DNA of 64,000 nucleotides from Dehalogenimonas sp. 4OHTPN. Lineage in GTDB: Bacteria; Chloroflexota; Dehalococcoidia; Dehalococcoidales; Dehalococcoidaceae. This document shows, piece by piece, positions 19,834 to 32,754 of the stretch. The translations under genes were made by a program, and so were the position numbers. The stretch covers positions 930,001 through 994,000 of the forward strand of contig NZ_CP159307.1 in assembly GCF_040448695.1 (NCBI RefSeq), written 5' to 3'. Positions within the stretch are counted from its first letter, which is position 1. Each line of letters opens with the position of its first letter. The notes beneath the pieces are model-generated. The model had not been told where the DNA came from. It searched no databases and saw only the letters and a list, made by a program, of their open reading frames with translations.

Positions 19834-20448
19834 ATGATCGCCATCATCGATTACGGGGCCGGCAACCTGCGCTCGGTGGCTAACGCCGTCGCATTATTGG
19901 GTTACGACGGCAGGGTTACCAGTTCGCCTCGCGATGTCATGTCAGCCGAAGGGGTCATACTGCCTGGGGTCGGCGCGGCCGCCGATACGGTAGTCTCGCT
20001 CAAGTCCCACGGGCTTGACCAAGCTATCAAGGAAATCATCATTAAGGGCACGCCGTTCTTAGCCGTATGCGTCGGGCTGCAGGTACTGTTTGAGGAAACA
20101 GAAGAGGGCGGCGGCTGCCAATGCCTGGGACTGCTGCCGGGCAAGGTTAAAAAGCTGCCATCCAGGGTCAAGGTGCCGCATATAGGCTGGAACAACGTTC
20201 GCCAGGCGAAACCGCACTACCTATTCGACGGTATCACCGACGGTGCCTTTTTCTATTTTGTCCACAGCTATTACGCCGAACCAGTATCCGATACCAACGT
20301 CATCGGCGCCACCGATTACGGTCTGACTTTTGCCAGCGCCGTGGCCTTCGGCAACACCATGGCAACCCAATTCCATCCGGAAAAGTCCGGCGCCGCAGGC
20401 CTTAAAATGTATGATAATTTCCTGAAAAGAGCGATTAGGGGAAACTGA
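19834..20448 (+). CDS. hisH: Imidazole glycerol phosphate synthase, glutaminase subunit
   Basis: Class I glutamine amidotransferase (204 residues) that releases ammonia for HisF in histidine synthesis, which also yields the purine intermediate AICAR. The N-terminus IAIIDYGAGNLRSV is typical. The nucleophile is in PFLAVCVGLQVLF (most HisH have GICLGMQ here), and the His/Glu pair is in TQFHPEKSG. It overlaps the next gene by one base. hisF is in the same operon but three genes away, separated by glutamate synthase genes; no other his gene is seen in the window. Confidence 0.93.
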   Translation: MIAIIDYGAGNLRSVANAVALLGYDGRVTSSPRDVMSAEGVILPGVGAAADTVVSLKSHGLDQAIKEIIIKGTPFLAVCVGLQVLFEETEEGGGCQCLGLLPGKVKKLPSRVKVPHIGWNNVRQAKPHYLFDGITDGAFFYFVHSYYAEPVSDTNVIGATDYGLTFASAVAFGNTMATQFHPEKSGAAGLKMYDNFLKRAIRGN

Positions 20449-21740
20449 TGAAAACGAAGTATCTCATCATCGGCAACTCGGCCGGGGGTATCGGCGCCGC
20501 GGAAGCCATCCGCGAAGTGGACAAGGAAGGCATCATCACCATCGTCGGCGAAGAACCCTATCCAGCCTACTCCAGACCGCTCATCTCCAAGTTCGTCTCC
20601 GGCGAGCATACCCCGGAAACCATGGGCATCCGCTCGGCCAGTTTCTACGAGAATAACCGGATTGATGTCGTCCTGGGCCACAAAGCCTACAAGATGGATA
20701 CCGCCGCGAAAACGGTAACGCTTGACGACGGCACCGAGATCAGCTATGCCAGGCTGCTGCTGGCCACCGGCGGCAAACCCATCGTACCCAAGATGGAAGG
20801 TATGGGCAAGGCCGGCATCTTCAATTTCATCAACCTGGCCGACGCCAAGAAGGTCGAGGAGTACCTGCCCAATGTCCGCCGCGCCGTGGTCATCGGCGGC
20901 GGCTTGATCGGCATTTCAGCCACCGAGGCGCTGGTCAAGCGCGGCGTCAAGGTCACCGTCGTCGAGATGAAGTCATACCCCTTAAACACCATCCTCGACG
21001 AGCCGGCCGGGCGTATCGCCGAGTATGCCATCAAAAAATACGGCGTCAACATGATGACCGGCCGCACCGTCGCTAAGATCCTGGGCGAAGACCGGGTAAC
21101 CGGCGTGGTTTACGATGACAGCCACGAGATGGTCTGCGATATGGTCGTCGTCGCCGTCGGTGTTTTTCCCAGGGTTGAACTGGCCCAGGGGGCCGGCATC
21201 ACCGTCAACCGCGGCATTGTCGTTGACAATCACATGATGACCAGCGTGCCGGATGTCTATGCCTGCGGCGATGCCTCGGAAGCTTTCGACTACGTATACG
21301 GCGCGGGCAGGCTGTCGCCGGTTTGGCCTAACGCTTATATCGGCGGTCGGGTTGCCGGTTATAACATGGCCGGATTGCCAACGCGCTACCGCGGAGGCAC
21401 CGCCATGAACTCCTTGAATTACTTTGGCCTGGAGATGGCCACCGCCGGCATGGCTTCGCCGCCGTCGCCGGAGGGTTACGAGGTCATGGTCAAGAAGAGC
21501 GAGGACACCTACCGCAAGCTGGTGATTAACGTCGAAGACAAACTGGTGGGCATGATCTTCCTGGGAGACATCGACAAAGCGGGCGTTTATTTCGGGCTGA
21601 TGCGCGACCGCATCCAGGTTACCGCATTCAAGAAAAAACTTCTGGCCGAAGACTTTGGCCTAGCCCTTCTGCCCAAGGAAGTCATCGAGGAGCGACTGAC
21701 CGGCGCCACCGCCGGCCGGGTCAAGGTCGGCGAGGCCTAG
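20448..21740 (+). CDS. FAD/NAD(P)H-dependent oxidoreductase, NirB-N/NADH oxidase type
   Basis: Flavoprotein of 430 residues with two dinucleotide sites: FAD (YLIIGNSAGGIGAAEAI) near the N-terminus and NAD(P)H (RRAVVIGGGLIGISATEAL) near residue 145. The FAD-contact segment DVYACGDASEA is present. The family includes NADH oxidases, rubredoxin reductases and the N-terminal part of nitrite reductase. Unlike GltD, it lacks the N-terminal Fe-S domain, which the separate Fe-S protein at the head of the operon could supply. I infer that it is the NAD(P)H-oxidising arm of the split glutamate synthase. A 68-base gap follows. Confidence 0.85.
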   Translation: MKTKYLIIGNSAGGIGAAEAIREVDKEGIITIVGEEPYPAYSRPLISKFVSGEHTPETMGIRSASFYENNRIDVVLGHKAYKMDTAAKTVTLDDGTEISYARLLLATGGKPIVPKMEGMGKAGIFNFINLADAKKVEEYLPNVRRAVVIGGGLIGISATEALVKRGVKVTVVEMKSYPLNTILDEPAGRIAEYAIKKYGVNMMTGRTVAKILGEDRVTGVVYDDSHEMVCDMVVVAVGVFPRVELAQGAGITVNRGIVVDNHMMTSVPDVYACGDASEAFDYVYGAGRLSPVWPNAYIGGRVAGYNMAGLPTRYRGGTAMNSLNYFGLEMATAGMASPPSPEGYEVMVKKSEDTYRKLVINVEDKLVGMIFLGDIDKAGVYFGLMRDRIQVTAFKKKLLAEDFGLALLPKEVIEERLTGATAGRVKVGEA

Positions 21741-21808
21741 ACCAATAACCAAGATACAAGAAGCAATAAACAAACAGCGTTGACGGCTAAACATCGGAGA
21801 CTTCGAAA

Positions 21809-22951
21809 ATGAAAAATTTAACCAAAGTTAGCAATTACTTCGGGGACGGCAAGGTCATTGACGCCTGCTCCATCTTCGGCATGATGGACACATCAGGCAA
21901 ATGCTTCTCCGGGCGAGACATAACACGGGCTATCGCCAACATGCACGACCGCGGCAACGGCCTGGGGGGCGGCTTCGCCGTCTATGGCCTGTATCCGCAG
22001 TATCCGGATTATTACGCCTTTCACATCATGTACGACTCTAAAGAAGGCAAGAATTGCACCGAGGCTTTCCTCAACGAGAATTTCAACGTCCACCATTCCG
22101 AGGAGGTGCCAACCCGGCCGGTAGCCGCCATCAAGAACCCGCCGATGGTCTGGCGCTACTTCCTGGACGCCGACCGCAGCCTGCGGGAGGGGAAACTGTC
22201 CCCGGACGACTACGTGGTCGAAAAAGTCATGCACATCAATTCTGTCATCGAAGACTCTTATGTTTTCTCCTCCGGCAAGAACATGGCCGCCTTCAAAGGC
22301 GTAGGCTATCCCGAGGAGATTTCCGAATATTTCTGCTTGGAAAACTACAACGGCTACCTCTGGACGGCCCACGGCCGTTTCCCGACTAACACCAAAGGCT
22401 GGTGGGGCGGCGCCCACCCGTTCAACATTCTTGACTGGACGGTAGTTCACAACGGCGAAATCTCCTCTTACGGCATCAACCGCCGCTACCTGGAGCAATT
22501 CGGCTATCACTGTACGTTACAGACCGACACCGAGGTGGTAGCCTATGCCGTCGATTTACTCGTCCGTAAACATAACCTCCCCATTGAACTGGTAGCCGAG
22601 ATCTTTGCCCCGCCGCTGTGGAGTGAGATAGAGCGCCGCCCCGCCAGAGAGCAAGAGCTTTTAAGGGCACTGCGCCAGGTCTATGGATCGTTACTTATGA
22701 ACGGCCCGTTCACCATCATCCTGGCCCATGAGGGCGAAATGATCGGACTGACCGACCGCATTCGGCTGCGGCCGCTGACCGTTGGCGAGAAGGGCAGCAT
22801 GCTGTATCTATCTTCCGAGGAAGCGGCCATTCGTCTTATCTGCCCGGATCTGGACCGTGCCTGGATCCCGATGGGCGGCGAACCGGTCATCGGTTCTCTC
22901 AAACACCCGCTCGGCACCGCTAAAGAGGCCGTCGCCGGAGGGGTGGCTTAA
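21809..22951 (+). CDS. Glutamate synthase amidotransferase domain protein (GltB1 type)
   Basis: Class II (Ntn) glutamine amidotransferase of 380 residues. A propeptide of 19 residues should be cut so that Cys20 ([11 protein letters not shown]) becomes the N-terminal nucleophile. [19 protein letters not shown] and [10 protein letters not shown] are the family's glutamine-binding segments. It corresponds to the N-terminal domain of bacterial GltB, encoded separately as in archaea. It delivers ammonia to the FMN protein one gene further on. hisF starts one base after its stop, so the two are coupled. Confidence 0.92.
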
Positions 22952-22952
22952 G

Positions 22953-23711
22953 GTGCTTACCCGCCGCATCATACCCTGCCTGGATGTCACGGGCGGGCGG
23001 GTGGTCAAGGGGCAGAGTTTCCTCAACCTGCGCGACGCCGGCGACCCGGTAGCCCTGGCCAAGTATTACTACGAACAGGGGGCTGACGAGCTGGCTTTCC
23101 TTGACATAACGGCAACTGTAGAAAGCCGGAAAACCATGGCCGGTATCATCGCCGAGTTATCTAAACACGTTTTCATGCCGCTGACTGTAGGGGGCGGCAT
23201 ACGCACTATCGCCGATATGCGGGAGATGCTGCTGTCAGGCGCGGATAAGGTAGCCATCAACACTGCCGCGGTGGCTCGGCCGGAATTGATCACCGAGGGG
23301 GCGTTAAAATTCGGCAGCCAGTGCATTGTGGTAGCCATTGATGCCAAGCAGGCCGGCGCCGGCAAGTGGGTGGTGCGTACCCATTCCGCCACCCAGGCTT
23401 CCGGGTTGGACGCCGTTGCCTGGGCCAGAAAGGCGGCGGAGATGGGCGCCGGCGAACTGCTGGTTACCAGCATTGACAGCGACGGGCAGAAAAAGGGCTA
23501 CGATAACGAACTCAACCGGGCTATCTCGGAATCGGTACCGGTTCCGCTTATCGCCTCCGGCGGCGCCGGGACGCTGGAACATATTTTTGAAGCCTTCGAT
23601 TCCGGCCGGGCTGACGCCGCCCTGGCCGCCAGCATTTTCCATTACGGAACTTATTCTATATCGCAGGTCAAAGACTATCTCGCCCAGAAGGGCATTGCCG
23701 TCAGGCGCTAA
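22953..23711 (+). CDS. hisF: Imidazole glycerol phosphate synthase, cyclase subunit
   Basis: TIM-barrel cyclase (252 residues) that combines PRFAR with ammonia from HisH to give imidazole glycerol phosphate and AICAR. The two catalytic aspartates are in [14 protein letters not shown] and [13 protein letters not shown]; the phosphate sites are LTVGGGIRT and IASGGAGT. The GTG start is set by GGAGGGG nine bases upstream and by the conserved start TRRIIPCLD; longer in-frame forms run into the preceding gene. It sits between two glutamate synthase subunit genes, an unusual arrangement. Confidence 0.95.
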
Positions 23712-23721
23712 GGAGCCAATT

Positions 23722-25227
23722 ATGAGAACGTTAGTACCCGCCAGGTTTATTGTCGAGCGCGACGCCAGCAAATGCATCAAGTGCCAGGTATGCGTCAACC
23801 AGTGCAGTTTCGACAGTCACTACTGGGACGCCGAAGACGACGAGGTCAAGGTTCGCCCGGGCAAATGTGTCGGCTGCCACCGTTGCGTTATGTTTTGCCC
23901 TACAGGAGCCATCAATATCCGCCGCAGCCCGCTGGAATATCGGGAGAACTACAGCTGGGAGCCGGAATATATTGAGGATATTCAGAAACAGGCCGAACAA
24001 GGCGGCATGCTGCTCACCGGCATGGGCACCGACAAACCCCACCGCATCTACTGGGATCACCTGGTGTTGAACGCCTCCCAGGTGACCAACCCGTCCATCG
24101 ACCCGCTGCGCGAGCCGATGGAGCTTACGACCTACCTGGGCAGCAAGCCTGACAGGATCGAAATCGACCCTTCAACCGGCAACCTGGCGACGCGGCTGGC
24201 GCCCCAGGTTAAACTCAACGTGCCGGTGATGTTTTCGGCCATGAGCTACGGCGCCGTGTCCCTGAACGTCCAGCAGTCGCTGGCCCGCGCCGCCGCCGAG
24301 ATAGGCACCATGTGGAACACCGGCGAGGGCGGCCTGCACCCCAGCCTGGTCAAGTACGCCAATAATACCACCGTTCAGGTAGCCTCCGGCCGCTTCGGCG
24401 TCTATTCGGAATACTTGAAGACCGGTCGTATCGTCGAGATCAAGATCGGCCAGGGAGCCAAGCCGGGCATCGGCGGTCATCTGCCGGGTGAGAAGGTTTC
24501 GGCTGAAGTGTCATTAACACGCATGATCCCCCAGGGTACCGACGCCCTGTCGCCGGCGCCGCAGCACGATATCTACTCCATCGAGGACCTGTCTCAGCTT
24601 ATCTATGCCCTTAAGGAAGCGACCAATTACCAGAAGCCCATTTCGGTCAAGATCGCCGCGGTCCATAACTCGGCGGCCATCGCCTCCGGCATGGTCCGGG
24701 CCGGCGCGGATATCATCGTCCTGGACGGCATCCGGGGATCCACCGGCGCCGCGCCCAAAGCGATCCGCGACAATGTCGGCATCCCCATAGAGCTGGCTCT
24801 GGCCTCGGTTGATACCCGTCTTAGGGCCGAGGGTATCCGCAACCAGGCTTCGCTGGTGATTTCCGGCGGCATCCGTTCCTCCGGCGACGTGGCTAAGGCT
24901 ATCGCTTTGGGCGCCGACGCGGTCAACATCGGCACCGCGGCGCTGGTGGCTCTGGGCTGCCGCGTTTGCCAACAGTGCTACACCGGTAAATGCGCCTGGG
25001 GCATCTGTACCTCGGACCTGAAACTGACCAAGCGTATCAACCCGGAACTCGGGGCGCGGCGGCTGGTCAATATGCTGCGGGGTTGGGCGCTGGAGATTGA
25101 CGATATGCTGGGCGGCATGGGCGTCAACGCCATAGAAAGCCTGCGCGGCAACCGGCTGCATCTTCGCGGCATCGGCCTCAATGAAAAAGAACTCGAGATT
25201 CTCGGCGTAAGGATGGCAGGTGACTAG
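23722..25227 (+). CDS. Glutamate synthase FMN/Fe-S domain protein (GltB2 type)
   Basis: Catalytic core of a split glutamate synthase (501 residues). Two [4Fe-4S] motifs at the N-terminus (CIKCQVCVNQC and CVGCHRCVMFCP) precede the FMN-binding TIM barrel, with MFSAMSYGAVS, GEGGLHPSL, GQGAKPGIGGHLPG, and DGIRGSTGAAPK. A further cluster motif (CRVCQQC, TGKCAWGIC) lies near residue 415. It makes glutamate from 2-oxoglutarate and ammonia channelled from the amidotransferase. AGGAG precedes the ATG by six bases. The next gene starts just after its stop. Confidence 0.93.
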   Translation: MRTLVPARFIVERDASKCIKCQVCVNQCSFDSHYWDAEDDEVKVRPGKCVGCHRCVMFCPTGAINIRRSPLEYRENYSWEPEYIEDIQKQAEQGGMLLTGMGTDKPHRIYWDHLVLNASQVTNPSIDPLREPMELTTYLGSKPDRIEIDPSTGNLATRLAPQVKLNVPVMFSAMSYGAVSLNVQQSLARAAAEIGTMWNTGEGGLHPSLVKYANNTTVQVASGRFGVYSEYLKTGRIVEIKIGQGAKPGIGGHLPGEKVSAEVSLTRMIPQGTDALSPAPQHDIYSIEDLSQLIYALKEATNYQKPISVKIAAVHNSAAIASGMVRAGADIIVLDGIRGSTGAAPKAIRDNVGIPIELALASVDTRLRAEGIRNQASLVISGGIRSSGDVAKAIALGADAVNIGTAALVALGCRVCQQCYTGKCAWGICTSDLKLTKRINPELGARRLVNMLRGWALEIDDMLGGMGVNAIESLRGNRLHLRGIGLNEKELEILGVRMAGD

Positions 25228-25228
25228 C

Positions 25229-25993
25229 ATGACCGAAACCGTTGAGACCCCCAGGATGGTAAAGATTGACACCGCCGGCATCTACTACCGCGATTTGAAC
25301 GCCCGGCTACGTAAACTGGTCGATGAAGGCGTCGACCAGATCGTGCTGCAAAATGTCTGCGGACAGCGCTATATCGCCTCCGACCTTTCGCGGCCGGTTG
25401 ACATTAAGATCTGCGGCACCCCGGGCAATGACCTGGGCGCCTTCATGAACGGCTCGCGAATCGAGGTGTTTGGAAACGCTCAGGACTGTATGGCCAACAC
25501 CATGAACGCTGGTGAGATTATCATCCACGGCCACGCTGGAGATATCTGCGGCATGGCCGCCCGCGGCGGGAAAATCTTCATCCGCGACTATGTCGGCTAT
25601 CGTGCCGGCATCCACATGAAGGAGTATCAGGACAAAAAGCCGGTTATGGTCGTCGGCGACACCGGCCAGGACTTTATGGGAGAGTACATGGCCGGCGGCG
25701 TGCTGGTGGTCCTGGGCCTGGGTCTTAAAGAAGGCCAAAAGCACAAGGCCAACTTCATTGGTACCGGCATCCACGGAGGCGTCATTTACATATCGGGCGA
25801 GGTAGAGCAACACCAGCTTGGCAAAGAGGTCGGAGTGGCGGAACTCGACGAGCATGACCGGGAGATTCTTGGCGGACTTGTGGCCGAATACTGCGAACAT
25901 TTCAAGCGCGACGCTGAGGCCATCATGCGGCGGCCGTTCCAGAAACTCTATCCCAAATACCTGCGGCCTTACGGCCGGATGTACTCCTACTAA
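25229..25993 (+). CDS. Glutamate synthase GXGXG-domain protein (GltB3 type)
   Basis: A 254-residue protein equal to the C-terminal right-handed beta-helix of bacterial GltB, here a free subunit. The repeating glycine pattern is visible in GNAQDCMANTMNAGEIIIHG, HAGDICGMAARGGKIFIRD and later GGVIYISG. In full-length GltB this domain is structural, linking the amidotransferase and FMN domains. A good ribosome site overlaps the end of the previous gene. It is the last gene of the operon. Confidence 0.92.
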   Translation: MTETVETPRMVKIDTAGIYYRDLNARLRKLVDEGVDQIVLQNVCGQRYIASDLSRPVDIKICGTPGNDLGAFMNGSRIEVFGNAQDCMANTMNAGEIIIHGHAGDICGMAARGGKIFIRDYVGYRAGIHMKEYQDKKPVMVVGDTGQDFMGEYMAGGVLVVLGLGLKEGQKHKANFIGTGIHGGVIYISGEVEQHQLGKEVGVAELDEHDREILGGLVAEYCEHFKRDAEAIMRRPFQKLYPKYLRPYGRMYSY

Positions 25994-26005: not shown

Positions 26006-26116
26006 GCGAAACACGAAATCCGAAAAATAGGATTGAGGGTATCAAAGCACTAAGATACATTGACCGCAAGAATTTTGGCGATTAGAATTTGCTTCGTGTT
26101 GCGATATTCGGATTTC
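26006..26116. repeat. Inverted pair of GAAATCCGAA intergenic repeats
   Basis: GAAATCCGAA at 26015-26024 and its complement at 26107-26116 bracket the gap before the nitrogen-type regulator; surrounding bases (CGAAACACG / CGTGTTGCG) also partly pair. It is the same repeat as in the hom-thrC gap. Confidence 0.5.
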
Positions 26117-26879: not shown

Positions 26880-26939
26880 GAAACATATCCGAAACATATT
26901 GTTAATCCCTTCGTAATACCATCGAAATCAGCACTTAAT
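26880..26939 (+). promoter_or_regulatory. Six 11-bp-phased half-sites upstream of the first amtB
   Basis: Five-base half-sites start at 26880 (GAAAC), 26891 (GAAAC), 26902 (TTAAT), 26913 (GTAAT), 26924 (GAAAT) and 26935 (TTAAT), every one 11 bp after the last. The layout equals the actinobacterial GlnR box (gTnAC-n6-GaAAC repeated). The array ends about 40 bases before amtB, upstream of candidate -10 sequences (TAGACT at 26950 or TAGTAA at 26958), as expected for activation. Confidence 0.7.
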
Positions 26940-26980
26940 ACTGCGCTGGTAGACTGGTAGTAATAAACGAAGGGAGGTAT

Positions 26981-28192
26981 ATGTCATTGAACTCAGGTGA
27001 TACAGCCTGGATTCTGGTTTCAACTGCCCTGGTGATGCTGATGACCCCCGGGGTAGCCCTGTTCTACGGCGGAATGGTGCGGAAAAAGAACCTCATCTCA
27101 ACTCTGATGATGAGTTTCGCCGTGCTGGCCCTGGTTTCCATCCTATGGGTCGTCTTCGGTTACACCCTGGCTTTCGGCCCTGATATCGCCGGATTTGTCG
27201 GCGGTCTGGACTTCCTGGGACTAAAAGACGTCGGCATGGAAGCCACCAGTTACTCCATCCCCGATTTGCTCTACATGATGTTCCAGGGCGTTTTCGCCGT
27301 TATAACCGTAGCTCTCATCACCGGCGCGGTAGTGGAGCGGATCAAGTTCTCAACCTTGATGGTTTTTGCCGTCGCCTGGCTGGCGCTCATCTACGGGCCG
27401 GTTGCTCACTGGGTCTGGGGCGGCGGCTGGCTGGCGCAGCTCGGTGCTCTGGATTTCGCCGGCGGCACAGTGGTTCACATCAACGCCGGAGTTTCAGCGG
27501 CGGCCCTGGTAGTCCTTCTCGGAGCCCGCAAAGGTCTCGGCAGGGAACCCATGGAGCCAAACAATATTCCCATGGTCATGCTCGGCGCAGCCTTGCTGTG
27601 GTTCGGCTGGTTCGGCTTCAATGCCGGTAGTTCTTTGGGAGCTAACGGCGGAGCAGCCAACGCTTTCGTTACCACCAACACTGCGGCGGCGGCGGCGGCC
27701 CTGGTCTGGATCCTACTGTCATGGCGCACCCGAAAACCCACCCTGCTTGGCGCGGTGACCGGTGCCGTGGCTGGTCTGGTGGCGATTACCCCGGCGGCTG
27801 GGTTCGTCTCGCCCATGGCGGCTATCGCCATCGGCGCGGTAGCCGCGGCTGTTTGCTATTTCGCCATGAATTTCAAAGCCAAGATTGGTTTCGATGACTC
27901 GCTCGACGTCATGTCGGTGCACGGCGTTGGCGGCATTTGGGGCGCTTTGGCCACTGGCATTTTCGCCAACGCGGCTATCGGGGGTGTGGATGGAGCGTTG
28001 GCTGGCAACCTGGGACAACTCTGGAATCAGATTATCGCCGTCGGGGCAGTCATGGCCTACTCTTTTATCGGCACGCTTGCTATTGGCAAAATCCTGGATA
28101 AGACCATGGGCCTGCGGGTCAAAGAGCTTGAAGAGGTAGTCGGTCTTGACCTTTCACAACACGGCGAGCGTGCTTACGGGGGGATAAAATAA
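26981..28192 (+). CDS. amtB: Ammonium transporter (first copy)
   Basis: Amt/Mep/Rh channel of 403 residues and about 11 membrane helices. The twin histidines of the pore are in GGTVVHINAG and SVHGVGGIWGAL; the signature GAALLWFGWFGFNAGSS is intact. There is no signal peptide, unlike E. coli AmtB. GGGAGG lies just before the ATG. A PII gene follows without a gap, and the PII T-loop normally plugs this channel when nitrogen is plentiful. The upstream half-site array suggests nitrogen-dependent activation. Confidence 0.97.
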   Translation: MSLNSGDTAWILVSTALVMLMTPGVALFYGGMVRKKNLISTLMMSFAVLALVSILWVVFGYTLAFGPDIAGFVGGLDFLGLKDVGMEATSYSIPDLLYMMFQGVFAVITVALITGAVVERIKFSTLMVFAVAWLALIYGPVAHWVWGGGWLAQLGALDFAGGTVVHINAGVSAAALVVLLGARKGLGREPMEPNNIPMVMLGAALLWFGWFGFNAGSSLGANGGAANAFVTTNTAAAAAALVWILLSWRTRKPTLLGAVTGAVAGLVAITPAAGFVSPMAAIAIGAVAAAVCYFAMNFKAKIGFDDSLDVMSVHGVGGIWGALATGIFANAAIGGVDGALAGNLGQLWNQIIAVGAVMAYSFIGTLAIGKILDKTMGLRVKELEEVVGLDLSQHGERAYGGIK

Positions 28193-28531
28193 ATGAAAAA
28201 GATAGAAGCCATCATCCGCGAAGAACGACTGGACGCCGTAAAGAAGGCGCTGGAGGAAATGGGACTCATCGGCATGACGGTTACCGAGGTATCGGGCAGA
28301 GGCCAACAGAAAGGCATACCGCTTCAGTGGCGGGTCGGCGAATACCGGGTGGATTTTCTGCCCAAGCTCAAGGTAGAGATTGTTTGTCATGGCGATGATT
28401 GCGGCGCCGCCGTCGAGGCCATCATGAAAGCGGCAAAGACCGGACGCATCGGCGACGGAAAGATTTTCGTCCTGCCGGTAGAATCCGCCCACCGCATCCG
28501 GACCGGCGAGACAGGTCAAGCAGTAATTTGA
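28193..28531 (+). CDS. glnK: PII signalling protein (first copy)
   Basis: PII trimer subunit (112 residues) that reads ATP/ADP and 2-oxoglutarate and blocks AmtB. The T-loop carries Tyr51 ([10 protein letters not shown]), the usual uridylylation site, though the loop sequence before it (KGIPLQWRV) differs from the enteric RGAEY form. The C-terminal signatures [11 protein letters not shown] and RIRTGETG are present. Its ATG follows the amtB stop directly, with GGGGGG nine bases upstream. It ends at a strong hairpin. Confidence 0.96.
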   Translation: MKKIEAIIREERLDAVKKALEEMGLIGMTVTEVSGRGQQKGIPLQWRVGEYRVDFLPKLKVEIVCHGDDCGAAVEAIMKAAKTGRIGDGKIFVLPVESAHRIRTGETGQAVI

Positions 28532-28612: not shown

Positions 28613-29476
28613 CTACCTTCCTGGTGCAGGGGCTGCTTGTTCGTCACCTTCAGCCGCCAGTTCCAACAGGTTTTCCAGCGCCACCGGTATCGCCGGTGTG
28701 AGGCGGGCCTGATGGTAAAGCGCCAGCAGCGTACCCAAGCTTAGAACGCCAACGGTTATCATTCCAGTGTAGGTCAGTGCGTCTGGCAGCCGGAAGAGGC
28801 TGAAAGCATTCCAGGCTGTATGTAGAAGGACTGCCAATACAAAGGCGCCCAAAACCCTGGCATTAACAGTAACGCTGCGGAATTTGACTCTTTGGCCCCA
28901 AAGCACGGCGCAAACAATACCTGTCCAGGCGGCATGACCCGCCGGAGACAGTAAACCGCGGATAAGTAACACTTGTTCCACCGCCGCCGGATCGCCCTGG
29001 CTTTCGATCAGGGCGGCCAGGCCGTAGCCCATTGTTTCTAAGGCAGCAAAACCCATGCCGGCCGAGATACCAAAGAGAAGGCCGTCAGCCTGGTGATGAA
29101 AACGCCAGGCGAGAAACAGCAATATGGGCAGAATCAGTTTTGAGGACTCCTCAATGATTCCTATCTTAAGCAAGCCGAGCAGGTCAGCTTCTCGGAGAAC
29201 GGCGTAATGCAGAAAGCCGGCGGCAATAATTCCCAGCGCCCCGCCGACTAGGAAACAAACCCCCAGGAGAAGAACCGGTATATTACGATCCCGAACATGC
29301 TCATAAAAGAAGACCACGTATGCCAGGGGCACGATAAATGCGCCGAGCATGATGACGGTTGGGAAAAAATTCGGGTTCCCCGTCCAGCGCAACGCAGCGT
29401 TAGCGCCGAAGAAGAGCAATACGCCCACCACCAGGATCCAGATCCAGGCTTTACGGAAAATATACGAACTTATCAA
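28613..29476 (-). CDS. PrsW-family intramembrane metalloprotease
   Basis: A 287-residue membrane protein with about eight helices. The PrsW/CPBP-type motif EE is in LKIGIIEESSKLILP, and later histidines occur in helices (SPAGHAAWTG, LLHTAWNAF), consistent with a buried metalloprotease site. PrsW of Bacillus cleaves the anti-sigma factor RsiW; the target here is unknown and no anti-sigma gene is nearby. The TTG start is favoured by AGAGG five bases before it and lies just after a -10 element. It is transcribed against the amtB-glnK pairs that flank it. Confidence 0.85.
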   Translation of the reverse strand: MISSYIFRKAWIWILVVGVLLFFGANAALRWTGNPNFFPTVIMLGAFIVPLAYVVFFYEHVRDRNIPVLLLGVCFLVGGALGIIAAGFLHYAVLREADLLGLLKIGIIEESSKLILPILLFLAWRFHHQADGLLFGISAGMGFAALETMGYGLAALIESQGDPAAVEQVLLIRGLLSPAGHAAWTGIVCAVLWGQRVKFRSVTVNARVLGAFVLAVLLHTAWNAFSLFRLPDALTYTGMITVGVLSLGTLLALYHQARLTPAIPVALENLLELAAEGDEQAAPAPGR

Positions 29477-29494
29477 AGCGTCCTCTGGCCGACA

Positions 29495-29500
29495 ATTATA
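29495..29500 (-). promoter_or_regulatory. -10 element of the prsW-like gene
   Basis: Leftward TATAAT 19 bases before the TTG start; no clear -35. It lies about 80 bases from the divergent repeats of the second amtB. Confidence 0.5.
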
Positions 29501-29580
29501 CAGGGTTAATCTTGAAGGAAAAACCCGCAGCAAGGCATTTATAAAAAGGCAGGGGCTTCTTTCGACCGGTGAAATCATGT

Positions 29581-29596
29581 GTAATCTGTTGGAAAC
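29581..29596 (+). promoter_or_regulatory. GlnR-box-like pair upstream of second amtB
   Basis: GTAAT (29581-29585), six bases, GAAAC (29592-29596): one a/b half-site pair with the same 11-bp step as the array before the first amtB. A GAAAT at 29571 is offset by 10 rather than 11. TAAAAT (29607-29612) or CATATT (29619-29624) may be the -10. Confidence 0.6.
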
Positions 29597-29643
29597 ACTT
29601 CCGCAGTAAAATCCAGCGCATATTGTTGCAGGGAGGTTTCGAT

Positions 29644-31211
<1,568 letters not shown>

Positions 31212-31241: not shown

Positions 31242-31283
31242 GTAATCCTTTGGAAATATACCACCGGTAGAATTATCTAAAAT
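31242..31283 (+). promoter_or_regulatory. glnA promoter with GlnR-box-like pair
   Basis: GTAAT (31242-31246), six bases, GAAAT (31253-31257), then TAAAAT (31278-31283) as -10. The half-site pair covers or abuts the -35 position, where no good hexamer exists, as expected for an activated promoter. Confidence 0.65.
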
Positions 31284-31317: not shown

Positions 31318-32754
31318 ATGAATCCGAAAGAAGTGCTCAAGTATTGTCAAGACAACTGCATCCAAATTGTGGACTTCAAATTCAACGACCTGCCTGGTCT
31401 GTGGCAACATTTTTCAATACCGGTGAGCGAACTTGATGAAGATATCTGGGAAGAAGGAATCGGGTTTGACGGCTCCTCCATCCGGGGTTTTCAGGCGATC
31501 AACGAGAGCGATATGCTGCTGATGCCGGATGCCAGCACCGCCATCCTGGATCCGATGCTCGAGGTGCCTACCCTCTCCATAATTTGTGATATTTTTGACC
31601 CAACCTCGGGGAAGCCATATACCCGTGACCCGCGTTTTATCGCGCGAAAAGCCGAAGCGTATCTGAAGACCACCGGCATCGCCGACACCAGTTATTGGGG
31701 TCCGGAAATGGAGTTCTTTATCTTCGACAACGTCCAGTTCGAGCAGAACGAACACACTGCATTCTACAATGTCGATTCAGTTGAAGGTTCATGGAACACC
31801 GCCCGGGCGGAAAATATTGACGGCGACGGCAATCCTCATAACCTGGGGTACAAACCCCGCTACAAAGAGGGCTACTTTCCTGTACCTCCCCATGATTCGT
31901 TGCAGGACCTGCGCAGCAGGATTATCCTTAAAATGATGGAAACCGGCATTCCAATCGAGGTCCATCACCATGAAGTTGCCACCGCGGGCCAGTGCGAGAT
32001 TGATATGCGTTTCAGTACCATGGTCAAGATGGGAGACCAAATGCAGTGGTACAAATATATCGTTAAGAATATGTGCCGGAAAGACGGCAAAGTCGCTACT
32101 TTCATGCCTAAACCGCTTTTCAAAGACAATGGCTCCGGTATGCACGTCCACCAGTCTTTGTGGAAGGATGGCGTGAACCAGTTCTTTGATAAAGACGGCT
32201 ACGCTCTTTTATCACAGACTGCCAAATACTATATCGGCGGTTTGTTGAAACACGCCGACGCCCTGATGGCTATCTGCGCCCCGACAACTAACTCCTACAA
32301 ACGACTAGTGCCGGGTTATGAGGCCCCGGTCAACCTGGTGTACTCCGCCCGCAACCGGTCGGCGTCGGTGCGCATACCCATGTATAACGCTAACCCGAAG
32401 TCCAAGCGTTTGGAGTTCAGATGTCCGGATAATACCGCTAATGGCTACTTATGCCTCGCGGCGATGATGATGGCGGGCTTGGACGGCATTCAAAACAAGG
32501 TTGACCCCGGCAAGCCCCATGACATGAACCTTTATGAATTGCCCAAAGCCGAAGCTAAAAAGATCCGAACCGTGCCTTCGTCGCTGGACGCCGCGCTTGA
32601 TGCCCTTGAAAAAGACCACGATTTCCTGCTGCAAGGAGGCGTGTTCACAAAAGATGTCATAGAGGTCTGGCTGGACTATAAACGTACCCAGGAAGTGGAT
32701 GCCATCCGACTGCGGCCGCACCCCTGGGAGTTTCATTTATATTTCGACATTTAG
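31318..32754 (+). CDS. glnA: Glutamine synthetase type I, beta-like
   Basis: Makes glutamine from glutamate, ammonia and ATP. The 478 residues include the latch region [11 protein letters not shown], the metal and glutamate sites [14 protein letters not shown], the ATP loop [18 protein letters not shown], and NRSASVRIP. The longer length and the segment [11 protein letters not shown] near residue 400, equivalent to the adenylylation Tyr of enteric GlnA, mark the beta class. No adenylyltransferase gene is in the window, so modification is only possible. Strong GGAG before the ATG; own terminator. Confidence 0.96.

Follow-up and report, generated by a model that had tools for sequence, protein, structure and literature searches.

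A predicted GlnR-type activator array of six phased half-sites in front of amtB in Dehalogenimonas sp. 4OHTPN

Between a stand-alone OmpR-type response regulator gene and the genes amtB1-glnK1 of Dehalogenimonas sp. 4OHTPN lie six 5-bp half-sites with a step of exactly 11 bp (Table 1). With good confidence they can be regarded as a GlnR-type activator array at a promoter lacking a -35 element, which is read by the adjoining regulator. The evidence comprises the sites and their phase, a fixed distance of 10 bp (n10) to the -10 element, the missing -35 element, conservation in relatives, the identity of the target genes and the kinship of the regulator to GlnR. Most likely this regulator turns on ammonium uptake under nitrogen scarcity. 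Literature searches found no description of GlnR in Dehalococcoidia or of nitrogen control in Chloroflexota, and how these organohalide-respiring bacteria switch their nitrogen genes at the level of transcription appears to be undescribed in the literature searched. Two things seem to be new: the occurrence of a GlnR-type nitrogen regulon in Dehalococcoidia, and an operator of six contiguous sites that is fixed in one family. The same half-sites and a GlnR-type system in another phylum suggest an old common origin or transfer. Unless stated otherwise, positions refer to the window, the whole analysed stretch of 64,000 nucleotides.

Table 1 Features of the nitrogen gene region in the window, with the evidence for each
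Feature	Position	Strand	Evidence
Candidate sigma-70-type promoter of the regulator gene, TTGACC-n17-TAGAAT	26060..26088	+	consensus scan, 10/12 matches
Orphan OmpR/PhoB-type response regulator, GlnR-like, 220 aa	26121..26783	+	Pfam Trans_reg_C 96 bits
Half-site 6 (distal) GAAAC	26880..26884	+	sequence, genus alignment
Half-site 5 GAAAC	26891..26895	+	sequence, genus alignment
Half-site 4 TTAAT	26902..26906	+	sequence, genus alignment
Half-site 3 GTAAT	26913..26917	+	sequence, genus alignment
Half-site 2 GAAAT	26924..26928	+	sequence, genus alignment
Half-site 1 (proximal) TTAAT	26935..26939	+	sequence, genus alignment
Extended -10 TGG-TAGACT, 10 bp past half-site 1	26947..26955	+	invariant TG.TA.A.T in 8 genus members
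amtB1, ammonium transporter (target)	26981..28192	+	Ammonium_transp 431.9 bits
glnK1, PII protein	28193..28531	+	P-II 107.9 bits; co-transcribed with amtB1 by position
Two-site operator and -10 of amtB2, GTAAT-n6-GAAAC-n10-TAAAAT	29581..29612	+	pattern match; kept at amtB2 in the genus
amtB2, ammonium transporter (target)	29644..30873	+	profile match
glnK2, PII protein	30873..31211	+	profile match
Two-site operator and -10 of glnA, GTAAT-n6-GAAAT-n10-TAGAAT	31242..31273	+	pattern match; kept at glnA in G083, G068
glnA, type I glutamine synthetase (target)	31318..32754	+	TIGR00653 667 bits, above cut-off

The half-sites had been described in an earlier note as six in number and exactly phased before amtB, and its letters and coordinates proved correct to the base. 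The half-site pattern KWAAY matches at 0.66% of positions. When both strands of the window were searched with steps of 6-22 bp, the only run longer than three was that of the array's six. When the intergenic region was shuffled 20,000 times with dinucleotides preserved, step 11 yielded four sites in a row on one occasion and five on none. Furthermore, four consecutive phased half-sites exist in the whole 1.75-Mb genome at the array alone, as its three registers, while a reversed control pattern gave no such run. A chance origin of the array is rejected on the shuffles, the whole-genome uniqueness and the conservation described below.

Ten bases (26940-26949) separate half-site 1 from the hexamer TAGACT (26950-26955), with a TG at 26947-26948; these elements are absent from the earlier note. 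A -35/-10 consensus scan called no promoter at this -10 and found no recognisable sigma-70 -35 element there. The candidate promoter of the regulator gene is weak because one site was found against 1.1 expected by chance. The hexamer TACCAT (26917-26922) was considered as an alternative -10 and set aside as a coincidence, as it lies inside the array and a comparable mid-array match was listed for only two other genus members.

A comparison of 94 distinct amtB upstream regions of Dehalococcoidia bore out the proposed phasing in relatives: half-site pairs are concentrated at distances of 11, 22 and 33 bp (80, 69 and 63 of the 94 regions) on the sense strand only, the antisense strand giving 6, 2 and 2. 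In 70 of the 94, exactly 10 bp lie between the sites and a TANNNT hexamer. In a grid of steps from 9 to 13 and gaps from 7 to 13, counting runs of three or more half-sites of the strict pattern, the combination of step 11 and gap 10 contained 52 regions, 46 of them with four or more sites and 8 with six or more. All other combinations reached at most 7 regions, and neither the antisense nor the shuffled controls of the grid contained runs of three or more. Since close relatives are present among the rows, all these values are sequence counts and not independent events. The four-site consensus of the class is GTAAC-n6-TTAAC-n6-GTAAT-n6-GAAAC-n10-TANACT, in which the conservation within the sites, but not that of the spacers, is inflated because the rows were picked for having sites.

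These data also bear on the idea that the array consists of phased A-tracts which bend the DNA or act as UP-elements without a dedicated protein. AA steps do repeat at nearly one helical turn upstream of the -10. However, the conserved letters are a strand-specific G/T-W-A-A-Y and not A-tracts, the spacers are weakly conserved, the antisense strand is without signal, and n10 remains constant while the number of sites varies between targets. An array without a dedicated protein is barely credible.

All eight members of the genus and all three genomes of the sister genus possess exactly six phased sites, n10 and a -10 before amtB, so that the phase, whose loss in relatives would have spoken against the earlier note, is retained. 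In the alignment of the eight genus members, TG.TA.A.T and the G.AA cores of the half-sites make up most of the invariant columns. In the rest of the class, sorted by lineage, four sites are usual and one further six-site case was found (L090). Outside the class, six sites are already known for GlnR at amtB of S. coelicolor (PMC5826061), which corrects the earlier note where it sets six apart from the usual number.

A narrower version of the activator array would be that the proximal two to four half-sites work alone and that the distal two are relics or chance. This would agree with the class norm of four, with the two sites that serve amtB2 and glnA here, and with the dispensable site a2 of S. 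coelicolor (PMC5826061). Six sites in phase in all 11 family members and invariant G.AA cores of sites 5 and 6, next to flanks that drift, argue against it, and we consider it unlikely.

The joint occurrence of arrays and regulator orthologues gives a mixed picture. Among 20 class genomes compared, five are without a clear orthologue of the regulator, and two of these (G030, G050) keep phased arrays before amtB; several others have the orthologue, and the anchored array is absent before the amtB examined. Regulators may have diverged, or the amtB in question may be a second copy. In G050, where the best regulator match is weak (159 bits), six near-identical half-sites precede amtB (L279, C8:62482-62781), five times GAAAC and then GAAAT in 11-bp phase, followed by n10-TACATT.

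The regulator is an orphan: its neighbours are the gene of a glutamate-synthase GXGXG protein and amtB, and no kinase gene adjoins it. Its best PDB matches are 8hig, 8hih and 8hml. We take these to be GlnR, a name that is missing from the molecule names given in the PDB; the assignment rests on how the GlnR activation complex is described (PMC10704036) and on what is generally known of these entries. With M. tuberculosis GlnR (the 8hih sequence) as query, the regulator scores highest of the genome's 19 OmpR-type genes (106 vs 93 bits), and the two are reciprocal best matches. A tree of 30 proteins, midpoint-rooted and of small sampling, sets GlnR and the Dehalococcoidia family apart from RegX3, 7e1b and six paralogues with a support of 100/98. 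The likeness of the half-sites to the GlnR box (gTnAc-n6-GaAAc, PMC10704036), recognised in the earlier note, is borne out, and the adjoining regulator is closest to actinobacterial GlnR. The receiver domain stays under the Pfam cut-off (20.5 vs 30.2 bits). Asp52 is present in the regulator, is replaced in 5 of 18 relatives, and the acidic pair is lost in several. This degeneration and the replacement of Asp52 point to a control other than ordinary phosphorylation, as has been described for GlnR (PMC10704036). Orthology is claimed only within Dehalococcoidia, since profile scores merge with those of paralogues at about 175 bits. At seven loci from outside the class, neither amtB nor glnA was a neighbour in any.

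Further operators were searched for in the genome by pattern. KWAAY-n6-GWAAY-n10-TANNNT has two matches, one before amtB2-glnK2 and one before glnA; a reversed control pattern also has two, so that the count alone is not significant while the location is. The tighter GTAAY-n6-GAAAY-n10-TANNNT keeps both matches, with none for the control. The looser KWAAY-n6-KWAAY-n10-TANNNT matches five times. Two of these matches fall in the amtB1 array, amtB2 and glnA have a single one apiece, and the fifth (1349703-1349734 of G000), beside which no nitrogen gene was recognised, was treated as chance. From the matches at amtB1, amtB2 and glnA, the regulon predicted here would therefore consist of the three operons beside the regulator and would lie, including the regulator gene, within about 6.6 kb.

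In relatives glnA is preceded by two-, three- or four-site versions, and a second subtype of type I glnA also has an array in two members of the genus. G068 has four sites in front of nifH (447 bits, exceeding the NCBI cut-off), and a PII-like gene comes after nifH. Since strain WBC-2 is reported to be the only Dehalogenimonas with nif genes (PMC13390414), G068 is probably this strain or a near relative. In G098 of the sister genus, arrays are located before a nifB-type gene, matching the radical-SAM part of the model, and before a second GlnR-like regulator. The former (L249, minus strand, from 2485) has four phased positions, one of them off consensus (TAAAT), and n10-TATAGT; the latter (L250, minus strand, from 1110) has three sites. 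This second regulator groups with actinobacterial GlnR (97/87), apart from the amtB-linked family, and is possibly an auto-regulated second copy. A strict two-site match in G124 (947554-947585) was set aside as it appears to be inside a coding region. Genes for taking up ammonium, making glutamine and fixing nitrogen are the targets to be expected of a nitrogen regulator.

Direct repeats of 11 bp in place of the -35 element are also known from class II promoters of the PhoB/Pho box type, from which the array differs in letters, targets and regulator subfamily. As operators of the OmpR family commonly have such repeats, it has to be weighed whether a different member of the family, e.g. a phosphate regulator, reads the array as a PhoB-type operator. 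About 18 other OmpR-type paralogues are present in the genome, one of which could in principle bind, and cross-talk of this kind exists at S. coelicolor amtB, where PhoP competes with GlnR (PMC5826061, PMC10704036). Against this, the array is flanked by the regulator gene and amtB, its letters agree with those of GlnR sites (gTnAc/GaAAc), the targets assigned with confidence are nitrogen genes (glnA, amtB, nifH, nifB), and the reciprocal best match of GlnR is the neighbouring regulator and not a paralogue. A different reader is thus very unlikely.

The actinobacterial GlnR regulon, with its 8HIH complex, is the closest known system to the GlnR-type array proposed here. Both have an orphan OmpR-type regulator whose receiver is degenerate, half-sites of 5 bp, commonly four, that follow one another head to tail with n6 spacers, and the targets amtB, glnK and glnA. 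In contrast to Actinobacteria, the host belongs to Dehalococcoidia, the regulator gene is the immediate upstream neighbour of amtB, some relatives have nif genes among the predicted targets, and the a/b alternation is looser, since TTAAT and GTAAT are allowed and position 5 is T as often as C. In S. coelicolor, a member of a different phylum, amtB likewise has six GlnR sites, in three boxes a3-b3, a1-b1 and a2-b2, the largest number described for one GlnR promoter (PMC5826061). Here all six sites form one uninterrupted series in 11-bp phase, which is fixed across the family.

In the mechanism proposed, the six 5-mers would be the half-sites of one operator for the adjoining regulator, which would bind with one winged-helix DNA-binding domain per half-site, head to tail on a single face of the helix, while the receivers would contact one another in the bound stack. 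When nitrogen is limiting, the stack would activate rather than repress, by recruiting RNA polymerase to the promoter with its extended -10 (TG-n-TAGACT) and no -35. The position of half-site 1, ending 10 bp upstream of the -10, would place the proximal domain where sigma region 4 is otherwise expected, and amtB1-glnK1 would be turned on. Through the two-site versions the same regulator would act on amtB2-glnK2 and glnA. Several dimers may load cooperatively, as suggested in the earlier note, and the neighbouring regulator would be the protein that binds.

GlnR of Actinobacteria holds RNA polymerase with four protomers (PMC10704036). A head-to-tail assembly of six protomers may form on amtB in the 11 family genomes and would exceed in size the solved M. 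tuberculosis GlnR complex with its four protomers. Array length (six, four or two sites) may then set the strength or order of activation of amtB1, glnA and amtB2; this reading as a whole we put forward tentatively and with more doubt than confidence. At S. coelicolor amtB three boxes allow a faster and stronger induction, and when they were reduced to two, induction at 60 minutes fell from 300-fold to 45-fold (PMC5826061). The analogy predicts that amtB1 with its six sites would be induced sooner and to a higher level than glnA and amtB2 with two each. With n10 fixed and two, four or six sites occurring naturally, these promoters offer a clean system for studying how operator length tunes activation.

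Some features of the surrounding genes are added here. The glutamate synthase directly upstream of the regulator (20448-25993) is apparently encoded as separate modules, i.e. an oxidoreductase, a glutaminase-like protein, a ferredoxin plus synthase protein and the GXGXG protein, with no matching array before them. The two amtB-glnK pairs (26981-28531 and 29644-31211) are diverged from each other, start 2.7 kb apart and are separated by a PrsW-family protease gene on the minus strand (28613-29707). The amtB2 operator overlaps the 5' end of this open reading frame as listed, and the true start of the frame is probably located further downstream.
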